Source: Sulfurospirillum cavolei
Lineage (GTDB): Bacteria > Campylobacterota > Campylobacteria > Campylobacterales > Sulfurospirillaceae
NCBI RefSeq assembly: GCF_001548055.1
Contig: NZ_AP014724.1
Location: 2,418,001 to 2,482,000, forward strand
DNA length: 64,000 nt
Direction: 5' to 3'
Below are positions 59,932 to 64,000 of this stretch, in pieces. Both the position numbers and the translations under genes were made by a program. Every line of letters starts with the position of its first letter. The first letter of the stretch is position 1. Under the pieces are notes generated by a model. It had not been told where the DNA came from. It searched no databases and worked only from the letters and a program-made list of their open reading frames with translations.

Positions 59932-60882
59932 TCAAATACGATTTTTTAAAAAATTGACGACATCATGTCTATTATGCATAACTGCAAATTCTTTCAGAGA
60001 TTTTCCATAAGAAACCTTTTGTGTAATATCAGCTCCTTTTTCAATCAAAATTTTTATCATTTCAAGATTTCCATGCTTAAAAATTGCCAATGCAAGTACT
60101 CCGTCTCCTTCTCCATGCTTTTTTTTATTCGGATAAGAGAAAATTGATTCTCTAGGATTTACCCCATTTTCAAGTAACAAGTTAACTGCTTCTAATTTGT
60201 TGCAATTTACAGCAAAATATAAGGGGGAATAGCCTGCTCCAAAAGAATCATATTCAAGTTTATTTGGGCTTGTTCCATTAGTAATAAATTCATGCATCTT
60301 TGACAAATCACCAAGTCCAGCACATAAATGCAAGTTCAACGATACACCATGTTCAACAAAGATTTTCGCTACAGTTGTTGAATTATCGCAATACAATAGA
60401 GCTTGAGCTAGAGGAGTTTCTAATTTATTATTTTTCAATCCTTCAATATTTGCTCTATTATTTAGAAGTAATTTTACTATTGACTCATATCCATGTGTGG
60501 CTGCTATACTTAATGGCGTTCTCATAAATTTTTCAGCACTTTTTCCACTACCATCATATGTGTCGTATGTTCCATCCACAAACGCTCCACGCTCAAGTAA
60601 AAGCTTGCATATTTCTATATTCCCTTCAGCCGCTGCTATATATAACGGACGACCTTCGTCAAGATCTGCCCCATAGTCTAATAAAAGCTGGACTACATTT
60701 AAGTTACCATTCTCTATTGCACACGAAATAGGAAGTTTTTTATAGCTGCTTTTCCCATCATTTCCATATTTGTTAGCGTTAACACCGCCTTCTAAAAGTT
60801 TTTTTACAAGTGCAATAGCACCATTCCGTGATGCTTTACAAAGTTCATCAGCTCTATTATCAAAAAGACCAAATAACCCCAT
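59932..60882 (-). CDS. Ankyrin-repeat protein
   Basis: 316 residues made of about seven ankyrin repeats from ~15 (NGAIALVKKLLEGGVNANKYG; NGNLNVVQLLLDYGADLDEG; EGNIEICKLLLERGAFVDG; HGYESIVKLLLNNRANIEG). No signal peptide or membrane helix. The gene is clearly more AT-rich than its neighbours, with different codon choices, so it may have come by transfer. Ankyrin proteins bind other proteins; the target is unknown. Confidence 0.85.
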   Translation of the reverse strand: MGLFGLFDNRADELCKASRNGAIALVKKLLEGGVNANKYGNDGKSSYKKLPISCAIENGNLNVVQLLLDYGADLDEGRPLYIAAAEGNIEICKLLLERGAFVDGTYDTYDGSGKSAEKFMRTPLSIAATHGYESIVKLLLNNRANIEGLKNNKLETPLAQALLYCDNSTTVAKIFVEHGVSLNLHLCAGLGDLSKMHEFITNGTSPNKLEYDSFGAGYSPLYFAVNCNKLEAVNLLLENGVNPRESIFSYPNKKKHGEGDGVLALAIFKHGNLEMIKILIEKGADITQKVSYGKSLKEFAVMHNRHDVVNFLKNRI

Positions 60883-60983: not shown

Positions 60984-62666
60984 TCAATCTTTACATGTCA
61001 AGACTTTTTGACGTTCGCTTTCGATCTCTTTATCGCTTAAGATACCGTAAGGATCACGGTACGGTTCTTTAACATGTAAGGACTTCGACACCTTTGAGAG
61101 TGTAGCGACGACACCTTTGATGTCGCTGTTTTCGTCATTGGCAACGTGCACGTCAAAGCCTGCGAGCGTGAGTCCCGCTTGGCTGACATGTAACGCGGTG
61201 GAGGCGACCAAAATGCCATCTAGTTTGAGCCGTTTTCGCAGGGTTTGGAAAAATTCTAACGTCACAAGCGACGCGTTGTTACTCTCTAAAAATGGGTCTA
61301 CAAAGATGACATCGAAGCACTCGTCCAAACGCGTCATCGCATAACGTGCTTCGGCGTTGAGAAATTCAACCTTCGTAAAATCATCTTCATACTTCCCACA
61401 TGTAAAAAGTGCTTCCAAAAGTTGTACATGTAAAGATTCCGGCACGATCTCCATGCTCTTTTGTAAAAGCAGACGATCGTGGTCGATCGCCTTGACATGT
61501 AAGGTGTGTTTTCTGAGGATTTGTGCTACTTTAAGAGCTTCAAGCGTGTTGTACCCCATCCCGAAACCGATCTCCAATACCCTTACGTCGCCTTGTTCCA
61601 GCCGCTTTTTTAAACACGATTTTTCCAAAAAAAGCCTTTGTGCTTGAGCGTACGCACCCGCTTTAGGATGGTAATAATCACGGTACGTTTCGCTCCAAAA
61701 AGTCGTACTTCCGTCTTTTAAGTCTATTTTTTGCGGTATTACACTCTTTGGTGCGCTTTGGTTTTCGATGCGATCGCCTTGAGAGATTCCGCGATACCGC
61801 ATCGTTTGAGCGACGTATTCACTAAATTGCCCCTTTGCCATATGCCATTTTGGAGCGACCAATTCGCGCTCGGGCGTGTCGGTGGCAAGGCGCACGATCG
61901 GTATAGACGAAGGCACGTAACGAAGCAACTCGATCAAGGCTTCGGCATACGCGTATTCGTTTAAAAGCGTGAAGGGCTCTTGAGCATATTGGCGCGCCAA
62001 ATCGGTATTTTTGATGACATGTAAGTTGTGAAATTTAATCCCAGCAATGTGCTCGTCGACCACGCCTCGAACGCTTTCGCGCCACATCTCGGGCGTTTCG
62101 TTCGGAAGCCCTACGATCAGGTGCGCATACGTTTTTAACCCTTTGGCGCGTAAACGCCTTAGCGCATCCAAAGAGCACGCGGCGGTATGCCCGCGATTGA
62201 GACTTTCAAGCGTTACATCGTGCAAACTTTGAACGCCAAGCTCCACGACCACATCGATCGTGCTGTTGAGTTCACTCAAATAGGCTAACGTCGCCTCACT
62301 CAAACAATCAGGTCTGGTTCCGACATGTAAAGCTCGAAAAGGGTATAGCGAAAGCAAGGCGGCGTAGGTCTCTTTTTGCCGAATCAACGAGGCAAAAGTG
62401 CCCGTGTAGGCTTGAATGTAAAGGGCAAACGCTTGAGCGTTGTAACGTTTTTTCGCAAAAGCAAGTGCTTTTTCGATCTGCTCTTCGACACTTTTGGCAT
62501 CGGCGATTTGAGCTGCGCGGCTTCCGTGTTCGGGGCAAAACGAGCAGCCGCCGCTTCCGTCTTTTTCACGGTTGGGGCAACCAAATTCCACATTGACGGG
62601 AATAGTGTACAACGCTTCGCCATAACAAGCGCGCATAGACGCTTTATGGCTTAAATACGGAAGCAT
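60984..62666 (-). CDS. TIGR01212 (YtqA/YhcC-like) radical SAM protein fused to MnmC-like methyltransferase
   Basis: 560 residues. Residues 1-~305 are a TIGR01212 radical SAM domain: cluster cysteines C30, C41, C44 (FGCPNREKDGSGGCSFCPEH), then GTRPDCLSEATLAYL, ELGVQSLHD and HLIVGLPNETPEMW. Residues ~314-560 look like the DUF752 methyltransferase half of MnmC: LKDGSTTFWSETYRDYYHPKAGA start, SAM motif VLEIGFGMGYN (363-373), and DVIFVDPFLESNN. B. subtilis YtqA, of the same radical SAM family, is linked to mnm5(s2)U34 synthesis (from memory, as MnmL). A single protein could thus make nm5U and then methylate it to mnm5U. At least eight ACATGT words fall in this gene. It is one base after the YgbA-like stop (TAAATG). 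Confidence 0.8.
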   Translation of the reverse strand: MLPYLSHKASMRACYGEALYTIPVNVEFGCPNREKDGSGGCSFCPEHGSRAAQIADAKSVEEQIEKALAFAKKRYNAQAFALYIQAYTGTFASLIRQKETYAALLSLYPFRALHVGTRPDCLSEATLAYLSELNSTIDVVVELGVQSLHDVTLESLNRGHTAACSLDALRRLRAKGLKTYAHLIVGLPNETPEMWRESVRGVVDEHIAGIKFHNLHVIKNTDLARQYAQEPFTLLNEYAYAEALIELLRYVPSSIPIVRLATDTPERELVAPKWHMAKGQFSEYVAQTMRYRGISQGDRIENQSAPKSVIPQKIDLKDGSTTFWSETYRDYYHPKAGAYAQAQRLFLEKSCLKKRLEQGDVRVLEIGFGMGYNTLEALKVAQILRKHTLHVKAIDHDRLLLQKSMEIVPESLHVQLLEALFTCGKYEDDFTKVEFLNAEARYAMTRLDECFDVIFVDPFLESNNASLVTLEFFQTLRKRLKLDGILVASTALHVSQAGLTLAGFDVHVANDENSDIKGVVATLSKVSKSLHVKEPYRDPYGILSDKEIESERQKVLTCKD

Positions 62667-63014
62667 TTACTTGAAAAGAAATTGGCGCATCTTGGTCAAT
62701 CCCAAACGCATACCGCTGTAACGCATAATCTTCGCCATCTTTTTCCACACCGGTTTTTCATAGCACGGATTGAGACATTTGCGACAACTGGGTTTGGGTT
62801 CTTGCGTACAGTTTCGAAGCCTCTCATAGGCATACAAAAAAAGCGTTTCGCACTCTTCGCACAAACGATACGGCACTTCGCATACGTTCTCTTCGTGAAA
62901 ACGAACCTGTAACGTACCCTCTTTTTTGGGAACGTCGTTGTGTTCTTTATCGCAATGCAATTGTAAAAAACGGTGTAGGGTTTGGCTATCGTTAGCAAGT
63001 TTATCGCGCGTCAT
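62667..63014 (-). CDS. YgbA/nitrous-oxide-stimulated-promoter family protein
   Basis: 115 residues from the ATG at 63014; an in-frame ATG at 63029 would give 120 residues, but MTRD... lines up better with the start of E. coli YgbA (from memory). Cysteine pattern HCDKEH...LCEECETLFLYAYERLRNC...SCRKCLNPCYEKP...RYSGMRL matches PF11756. It probably binds metal; E. coli YgbA responds to NO. It is directly upstream of the radical SAM fusion with no gap (co-transcribed), an unusual pairing. Confidence 0.85.
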   Translation of the reverse strand: MTRDKLANDSQTLHRFLQLHCDKEHNDVPKKEGTLQVRFHEENVCEVPYRLCEECETLFLYAYERLRNCTQEPKPSCRKCLNPCYEKPVWKKMAKIMRYSGMRLGLTKMRQFLFK

Positions 63015-63113
63015 GATCTCTCTTTGCATGTAAAAATAGATGCTCTAGCAAAAAGCAATAGTATCACAAAATCATTAACGCGACGTTCTCTTTTGAACTT
63101 AACGGTTCTTTTT

Positions 63114-63151: not shown

Positions 63152-64000
63152 TTATTCGGCTTTTTTCGCGGGAATAATAATGCCTTTGTAAGGACCAAAT
63201 TTATGCTGATGGCGATTTTTATCGTCAGCATATGGAGGCGTATCGGTATCCGCAGCTTTGACGATTACGTCAGGAAAATCTTTTTCTTTATTCGCTTTAA
63301 TCGGTCGTACCTTGTCGTAATTGTTAATATACGCGGCAACATCATAAGCTTGATCGTCCGTCAAAATTTTTGCATCGCTGGTCGCACCTAAAGGCATATT
63401 AGTAGCAATCCAATCGGCAGCTTTAATCAATCTAAACATACCGGCACCCGTATTATAAGTATCTTTACCCCAAAGCGGCGGATATTCATAACCGTTTGCC
63501 TTGCCTTCACGTTTCACACCCTGTCCGTTATCACCGTGACAAGAAGCGCAATACTCTTGATATACCTTTTCTCCTTTGATGGGGTCAGCCGCTCGACTCA
63601 TAATTATTTTACGGTCAATTTTCATCAAAGAACTGCCTTCAACTTTAGCACCGACAGGTATCCCCTGTGATAACCAATACATATATGCCGTCATCGCTTT
63701 CATCTCTTTAGAGTTTTCCGGCAATGGCTTACCGTTCATACTACGTTGCATACAGCCGTTAATACGATCTTCGATAGTTCCAATCGTATTTTCTCTAGGA
63801 CGGTATTGAGGGAAATTTGCAAAAACACCGATAAATCCCGCAGAATATTTCTTTGTTCCTGCATCTAAGTGGCAACTGTTACAGGCAAGGTTATTGCCAG
63901 CATAACGCATTTTTGGATCGGCAACTTCCGGTCCAATGTATTTATACGTTTCTTGAACTAAGGCTTTGCCGTAACGAACATACTCCCCAAACATATTATC
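63152..64000 (-). CDS. tsdA: TsdA-like dihaem cytochrome c (5' end cut by window)
   Basis: The frame stays open to base 64000, so the start and signal peptide lie outside; 282 codons are visible. Two haem c sites: CNSCH followed by LDAGTKKYSAGFIGVFANFPQYRPR, and CASCH in YCASCHGDNGQG. The segment DRINGCMQRSMNGKPLP is typical of TsdA, where a cysteine there supplies an axial haem ligand (from memory). TsdA interconverts thiosulfate and tetrathionate; in Campylobacter it favours tetrathionate reduction. It fits the sulfur respiration theme of the window. A terminator follows. Confidence 0.9.
   Translation of the reverse strand, partial: DNMFGEYVRYGKALVQETYKYIGPEVADPKMRYAGNNLACNSCHLDAGTKKYSAGFIGVFANFPQYRPRENTIGTIEDRINGCMQRSMNGKPLPENSKEMKAMTAYMYWLSQGIPVGAKVEGSSLMKIDRKIIMSRAADPIKGEKVYQEYCASCHGDNGQGVKREGKANGYEYPPLWGKDTYNTGAGMFRLIKAADWIATNMPLGATSDAKILTDDQAYDVAAYINNYDKVRPIKANKEKDFPDVIVKAADTDTPPYADDKNRHQHKFGPYKGIIIPAKKAE

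Follow-up and report, generated by a model that had tools for sequence, protein, structure and literature searches.

Can a single polypeptide complete the mnm5U34 modification of the tRNA wobble uridine with a radical SAM domain standing where MnmC carries its FAD oxidase? The question is raised by an intact 560-residue open reading frame, beginning with ATG and free of internal stops, in the window, by which we mean the whole 64,000-nucleotide stretch of DNA analysed from the sulfur-metabolising bacterium Sulfurospirillum cavolei (Table 1). A sequence-only reading of the locus had proposed that a YtqA/MnmL-like radical SAM domain and an MnmC-type methyltransferase were joined in this one chain. 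Our follow-up indicates that the protein is probably a bifunctional tRNA wobble-uridine enzyme which, like MnmC, would convert cmnm5U34 by way of nm5U34 to mnm5U34, with the radical SAM domain in place of the FAD oxidase.

Table 1. Features of the fusion locus, given in positions of the window.
Feature	Position	Strand	Evidence
560-aa fusion of TIGR01212 radical SAM domain and MnmC2-type methyltransferase	60984..62666	-	profiles, phmmer, alignment, predicted fold
TIGR01212 radical SAM domain, residues 7-300	61767..62648	-	237.3 bits against a curated cut-off of 180; Elp3 Z 24.6
[4Fe-4S] cysteines C30, C41, C44	62535..62579	-	conservation across fusions and radical SAM groups
MnmC2-type (DUF752/PF05430) methyltransferase domain, residues ~313-542	61041..61730	-	3vyw E 2.1e-18, Z 28.3; PF05430
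SAM-binding loop GFGMGYN, residues 367-373	61548..61568	-	methyltransferase alignment
D457, counterpart of E. coli MnmC Asp178 (proposed catalytic base)	61296..61298	-	alignment; role from PMC3648344
YgbA_NO (PF11756) gene, upstream of fusion	62667..63029	-	48 bits, cut-off 25

The N-terminal half was assigned by profile to TIGR01212, which bears the NCBI name ‘tRNA modification radical SAM protein MnmL/YtqA’, and its cysteines lie where the sequence-only reading had placed them, in the C30-x10-C41-x2-C44 pattern of that family. All three are invariant across the 20 fusions aligned (the stretch between C30 and C41 being shortened in L082) and conserved to 90% or more in every one of the five radical SAM groups that were compared. 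Profile searches of the protein found neither an FAD oxidase domain (MnmC1) nor an acetyltransferase domain, and TIGR01211 gave 60.4 bits, far under its cut-off of 350.

The C-terminal half matches PF05430 over residues 426-508 with 35 bits (gathering cut-off 22), and a phmmer search of the solved structures returned Aquifex MnmC2 for this half and Elp3 for the other. The predicted LEIGFGMGYN motif was located at residues 364-373, and the DG...S..Y.D.Y start typical of the domain, read here as DGSTTFWSETYRDYY, at residues 318-332. With the MnmC2 equivalog model NF033855 the protein reached 73.7 bits (E 1.8e-20), short of the cut-off of 136, which was likewise missed by five other fusions scanned (67-118 bits). 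Because of these scores we use the term ‘MnmC2-type’ and do not call the domain an NF033855 equivalog; judged from its sequence, it appears to be a diverged member of the type.

Key residues were compared in an alignment of 62 methyltransferase domains, among them 20 Campylobacterota fusions and seven others. Kim and Almo (2013; PMC3648344) propose Asp178 of E. coli MnmC as the base, assign Glu101 to binding of the SAM ribose and describe Asp26 as widely conserved. The counterpart of Asp178 is aspartate in 19 of the 20 Campylobacterota fusions (asparagine in L065) and in all seven others, that of Asp26 is aspartate in 18 of the 20, and that of Glu101 is aspartate in 16 and glutamate in four, while F67, G68, G70 and N72 are kept in 27 of 27 fusions. 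The position of Pro182 is occupied by glutamate in 15 of the 20, and that of Lys236 by aspartate or glutamate in all 20; among stand-alone MnmC2 proteins, too, few have this lysine (5 of 28).

An AlphaFold2 model of the fusion, built from 32 sequences, had a mean pLDDT of 91.5 and a pTM of 0.90. In structural alignments its C half matched Aquifex MnmC2 (3vyw_D) over 240 residues with an rmsd of 2.3, and its N half matched Elp3 (8asw) over 277 residues with an rmsd of 3.1; the C half is thus predicted to have the fold of the solved MnmC2. Profile, fold and key residues together upheld the family assignments of the sequence-only reading for both halves, with the exception of the strict NF033855 cut-off for MnmC2.

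The host genome is a single contig of 2,698,323 bases, and profile searches of it found both MnmG (C1:568396-570237, 891.5 bits) and MnmE (C1:1058519-1059832, 402.4 bits). No MnmC1 was detected in this genome, the best match having an E-value of 1.2e-6 over the first 35 profile positions only. The sequence-only reading had named a complete MnmC elsewhere in the genome as a refutation, and this check left its proposal standing. The weak TIGR03197 matches listed for the genome were not accepted as MnmC1, being confined to a short segment where the profile begins, presumably FAD-binding. MnmM was absent from this genome and from all 44 genomes of the family sample, and the fusion was the only PF05430 match in the genome, which holds no second MnmC2 protein. 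This inventory fits the claim that the oxidase has been replaced by the radical SAM domain. A second TIGR01212 protein, stand-alone and YhcC-like (L026), is encoded at C1:2559841-2560773 and is 32% identical to the fused N half.

The spread of the fusion, which the sequence-only reading had marked for mapping, was followed within the family with frame length taken as a proxy. A full-length TIGR01212 frame of fusion size (481-604 aa) was present in 30 of the 44 genomes and a stand-alone TIGR01212 protein in 28 (including G031, where it is split over two frames). Both halves were confirmed in each of the 22 fusion genomes, out of the 30, whose frames were read. No TIGR01212 protein other than the fusion exceeds the cut-off in G013 (a single contig, 99% complete), G024, G039 and G040; a full-length stand-alone protein occurs without a full-length fusion in G030 and G037; and 12 genomes have neither form at full length. 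Fragments were seen in G030 and G036. The PF05430 search covered six of the 44 genomes: in G016, G020 and G021 the domain lies inside the fusion-size frame, and these three, the host genome and G014 have no PF05430 protein besides the fusion.

None of the family's 30 fusion genomes holds an MnmC1-like protein of at least 130 bits. By comparison, eight of ten genomes of one further genus (g2) carry such a protein and all ten are without a TIGR01212 match over the cut-off; PF05430 was not found in G010, the one g2 genome searched. This contrast lies between genera and may reflect a single event. Probable stand-alone MnmC1 proteins were noted at L121:4418-5461 (-), in G010, and L122:3814-4887 (-), whose MnmC1 scores of 158 and 169 bits (cut-off 174.2) compare with 66 and 58 bits for ThiO, and a similar match occurs in 35 more of 150 genomes. 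At first sight the MnmC1-like proteins of about 350-420 residues resemble glycine oxidases, B. subtilis also matching in the MnmC1-like search, but in the two scanned the higher score for MnmC1 than for ThiO disfavours that identity.

At the level of the phylum, 150 Campylobacterota genomes, drawn evenly and at least 95% complete, were sampled. Full MnmC is present in 53, none of which has TIGR01212, and stand-alone MnmC2 in 70, of which 68 have TIGR01212; the fusion was found in five. The remaining 22 lack PF05430, and one of these (G112) has TIGR01212. The two genomes with stand-alone MnmC2 and no TIGR01212 (G147, G166) carry an MnmC1-like protein that reaches E <= 1e-25 without attaining the cut-off, and 34 more of the 70 have one too. 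Consequently, all 128 genomes with an MnmC2 domain contain TIGR01212, MnmC1 or an MnmC1-like protein. In eight of the 70 genomes the TIGR01212 and stand-alone MnmC2 genes adjoin, with match starts within 1.4 kb, and four of these pairs (L083-L086) were fetched and read. The co-occurrence tracks families, so that it amounts to few independent events, and shared ancestry lies outside the Fisher statistics. The association of TIGR01212 proteins, YhcC-like where placed in a tree, with oxidase-free MnmC2 hints that the YhcC branch also acts in the mnm5U34 pathway, a suggestion to which the fusion would add if its bifunctional reading is right.

One scan of a collection of 84,980 species genomes yielded 49 loci, and in 34 of them one ORF matches both halves. 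Seven of the 34 are labelled outside Campylobacterota. Three are named strains of Desulfobulbales (Desulforhopalus sp. IMCC35007, D. vacuolatus and Desulfogranum marinum); the other four come from metagenome bins, possibly misbinned, with the labels Kiritimatiellales, Kiritimatiellae, Spirochaetia and Planctomycetota. A further fusion, L143, is labelled Proteobacteria only and is 73% identical to the window's protein. Eight loci with Kiritimatiellota, Lentisphaerota or Paceibacterota labels have the nearest radical SAM domain without MnmC2, and PF05430 was found in none of the five such genomes searched (G202-G206). In a Kiritimatiellia metagenome bin, QueH (epoxyqueuosine reductase, PF02677) is fused to a TIGR01212 domain of the same clade (L157:5290-6897, +); this genome gave no PF05430 match.

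Coexistence with the stand-alone enzymes was surveyed in 20 genomes of unstated completeness. Six Campylobacterota (G188-G193, including Arcobacter CECT 8985 as G188 and Malaciobacter halophilus as G189) hold the fusion together with stand-alone TIGR01212 and stand-alone MnmC2, and G188, G189 and G192 have an MnmC1-like protein of more than 140 bits as well, with a partial one (74 bits) in G193. In G194 the fusion is accompanied by an incomplete second TIGR01212 and an MnmC1-like protein, in G196, G198, G200 and G201 by a further TIGR01212 protein over the cut-off (G201 also has another stretch of PF05430, at the end of a contig), and in G207 by a stand-alone TIGR01212. In G195, G197 and G199 the fusion contains the sole TIGR01212 match (E <= 1e-20) as well as the sole PF05430, and MnmC1 was not detected at E 1e-20.

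In a tree of 82 radical SAM rows, the 27 fused and eight Kiritimatiellota-type rows fell on one side of a 100/100 branch. The stand-alone Campylobacterota proteins, including the paralogue L026, grouped with E. coli YhcC, and a 99/93 branch separated YhcC and Bacteroidia from the remaining rows. Two Bacilli proteins that adjoin MnmM, the MnmM neighbours being confirmed at 245 and 236 bits, were placed elsewhere. Grouping the fused and Kiritimatiellota-type rows with YhcC was not rejected in the AU test (p 0.10), and grouping with MnmL was rejected (p 0.0005) in a badly posed comparison that had two Bacilli MnmL rows and left out their relatives, so that nothing is built on it here. As the fused rows form a clade of their own, the tree does not support taking the domain as YtqA outright: the earlier ‘YtqA’ assignment stands at the level of the TIGR01212 family, and the domain itself, in a genome with a second family member, is placed by this tree apart from both Bacilli MnmL and YhcC.

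The methyltransferase tree (62 rows) set the domains of full MnmC apart at 100/100. The fused halves lie on one side of a weak branch (59/98), those of Campylobacterota together with L154 on a long branch (98/99). A single origin of the fusion is possible: an AU test did not reject a single clade of fused rows (p 0.24).

The fusion's ATG is touched by the TAA stop of the YgbA_NO gene, which stands directly upstream in all 12 same-genus loci fetched by place and in none of seven loci from other genera of the family; an eighth such locus, L065, stops short of the position. Any tie of the fusion to nitrosative stress is a guess. Further upstream lies a c-type cytochrome-like ORF (63152-63994, -) with CNSCH and CASCH motifs, a relative of which is found upstream of the fusion in 10 of the 12 same-genus loci. 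Downstream, an ankyrin-repeat-like protein (59932-60882, -), so judged from sequence alone, gave no BLAST hit at E 1e-8 around the fusion in any of the 54 loci compared.

The bifunctional reading is based on the kinship of the domains, their cofactor and key residues, the predicted fold, the distribution of the fusion, and the absence of the usual enzymes. From these we infer the substrate, the order of steps, the chemistry, the oxygen independence and the activity of both halves. MnmE and MnmG would modify C5 of U34, installing cmnm when glycine is used and nm when ammonium is used. The N-terminal domain would then remove the carboxymethyl group from cmnm5(s2)U34 to give nm5(s2)U34, presumably through attack of a 5'-deoxyadenosyl radical on the glycine-derived carbon, and the C-terminal domain would methylate the amine with SAM, yielding mnm5(s2)U34. 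Such an oxygen-independent enzyme would suit an anaerobe.

This reading is favoured by the family, residue and fold matches, by the presence of MnmG and MnmE without MnmC1 or MnmM in the host genome, and by the genomes where the fusion is the only candidate (G195, G197, G199) or the only TIGR01212 protein (G013, G024, G039, G040). Moreover, in the phylum sample TIGR01212 accompanies stand-alone MnmC2 in 68 of 70 genomes, with the two genes adjoining in eight, and full MnmC in none of 53; the TIGR01212 proteins of two Bacilli adjoin MnmM, and QueH, which also acts on a wobble base, occurs fused to a radical SAM domain of the fusion's clade. It is weakened by the separate radical SAM clade, the second TIGR01212 protein (L026) and the coexistence in G188-G193, as well as by the long branch of the fused MnmC2 halves and the sub-threshold NF033855 score of the window's C half.

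Specialisation or a changed reaction are kept as options because the six coexistence genomes hold the fusion beside the stand-alone pair. The two TIGR01212 copies of the host genome, the same six genomes (three with an MnmC1-like protein too) and the YgbA_NO gene upstream in the genus would fit a division of labour, in which both TIGR01212 proteins catalyse one step, with the fusion serving certain tRNAs or certain conditions (such as strict anoxia or nitrosative stress) and the YhcC-like protein the rest. We regard this as unlikely, given the four family genomes whose only TIGR01212 protein is the fusion and given G037, which has the stand-alone protein alone, although either might be able to stand in for the other. 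Coexistence with the stand-alone pair would also fit if the Campylobacterota fusion has drifted to another wobble-uridine modification or another tRNA and the pair makes mnm5U, and the separate radical SAM clade, the long methyltransferase branch and the acidic residues at the positions of Lys236 and Pro182 point the same way. Nevertheless, the SAM loop and the catalytic aspartate are kept, five family genomes including the host have no other PF05430 protein, and in G195, G197 and G199 no other candidate was found, which makes such a drift rather improbable. The fused clade might also represent a third lineage of radical SAM proteins in the wobble-uridine pathway, one whose distinct reaction forms a new wobble nucleoside in those Campylobacterota that keep the stand-alone pair, and which has taken over the pathway in Sulfurospirillum; this, too, strikes us as rather improbable.

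The methyltransferase half might also work alone, on nm5U supplied by the ammonium route of MnmEG, with the radical SAM half having another role or binding tRNA. The route is real in E. coli (PMC3936742), and G147 and G166 have stand-alone MnmC2 without TIGR01212, though both possess an MnmC1-like protein; against it, the cluster cysteines are invariant and each of the 128 MnmC2-bearing genomes among the 150 has a TIGR01212, MnmC1 or MnmC1-like protein, so that we consider it very unlikely. A frameshift, misassembly or chance joining of two genes has a negligible probability and is ruled out by the spread of the fusion: 30 of the 44 family genomes have fusion-size frames, and 34 of the 49 scanned loci, named strains included, encode both halves in one ORF.

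The family-level role of TIGR01212 (MnmL) reportedly goes back to Jaroch et al. in 2024, whose abstract is said to mention fusion proteins in the MnmL pathway. This work is cited for MnmL in the nm5s2U34 table entry of a review (PMC12548931) and for ytqA in a phage paper (PMC12245174). According to a passage of the MnmM paper (PMC9976899), its authors expected a single oxidoreductase and methyltransferase polypeptide, or an operon, among their candidates and found none there. Our literature search returned no title or abstract start that describes a radical SAM-MnmC2 fusion, the MnmL paper lying outside that search, and none in which yhcC is named alongside both tRNA and radical SAM.

Among known systems, Elp3 provides the closest solved fold for the radical SAM half, and it too acts at C5 of U34; the fusion differs in its TIGR01211 score and in showing no acetyltransferase domain. 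E. coli YhcC and its Campylobacterota relatives share the TIGR01212 family, whereas the fused domain forms a separate clade for which a common grouping with YhcC was not rejected. MnmL/YtqA, which works with MnmM in Bacillota, belongs to the same NCBIfam family over the cut-off and has the same cysteine pattern. Furthermore, D263 of the fusion is common to the three MnmL-group rows and was not found in the YhcC-group consensus. MnmL stands beside MnmM, whereas the fused radical SAM domain, in its own clade, is joined to MnmC2.

Stand-alone MnmC2, as in Aquifex (3vyw) and Campylobacterota, offers the best structural match and similar key residues; the fusion's methyltransferase, in contrast, is joined to a radical SAM domain, diverged and under the NF033855 cut-off. 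If the bifunctional reading is right, one chain does the job of MnmC in E. coli, and of MnmL and MnmM in Bacillus, without an FAD oxidase, and would provide a small system in which to test the radical SAM step, with the joined methyltransferase able to trap its product. A parallel in organisation is bifunctional MnmC (MnmC2-MnmC1; E. coli and 53 Campylobacterota), which has two activities per chain, a methyltransferase of the same family and the same net reaction as that proposed for the fusion. The methyltransferase domains of the two fall into separate clades, and the fusion, lacking an FAD oxidase, carries its radical SAM domain at the N-terminus, whereas the oxidase of MnmC is C-terminal.
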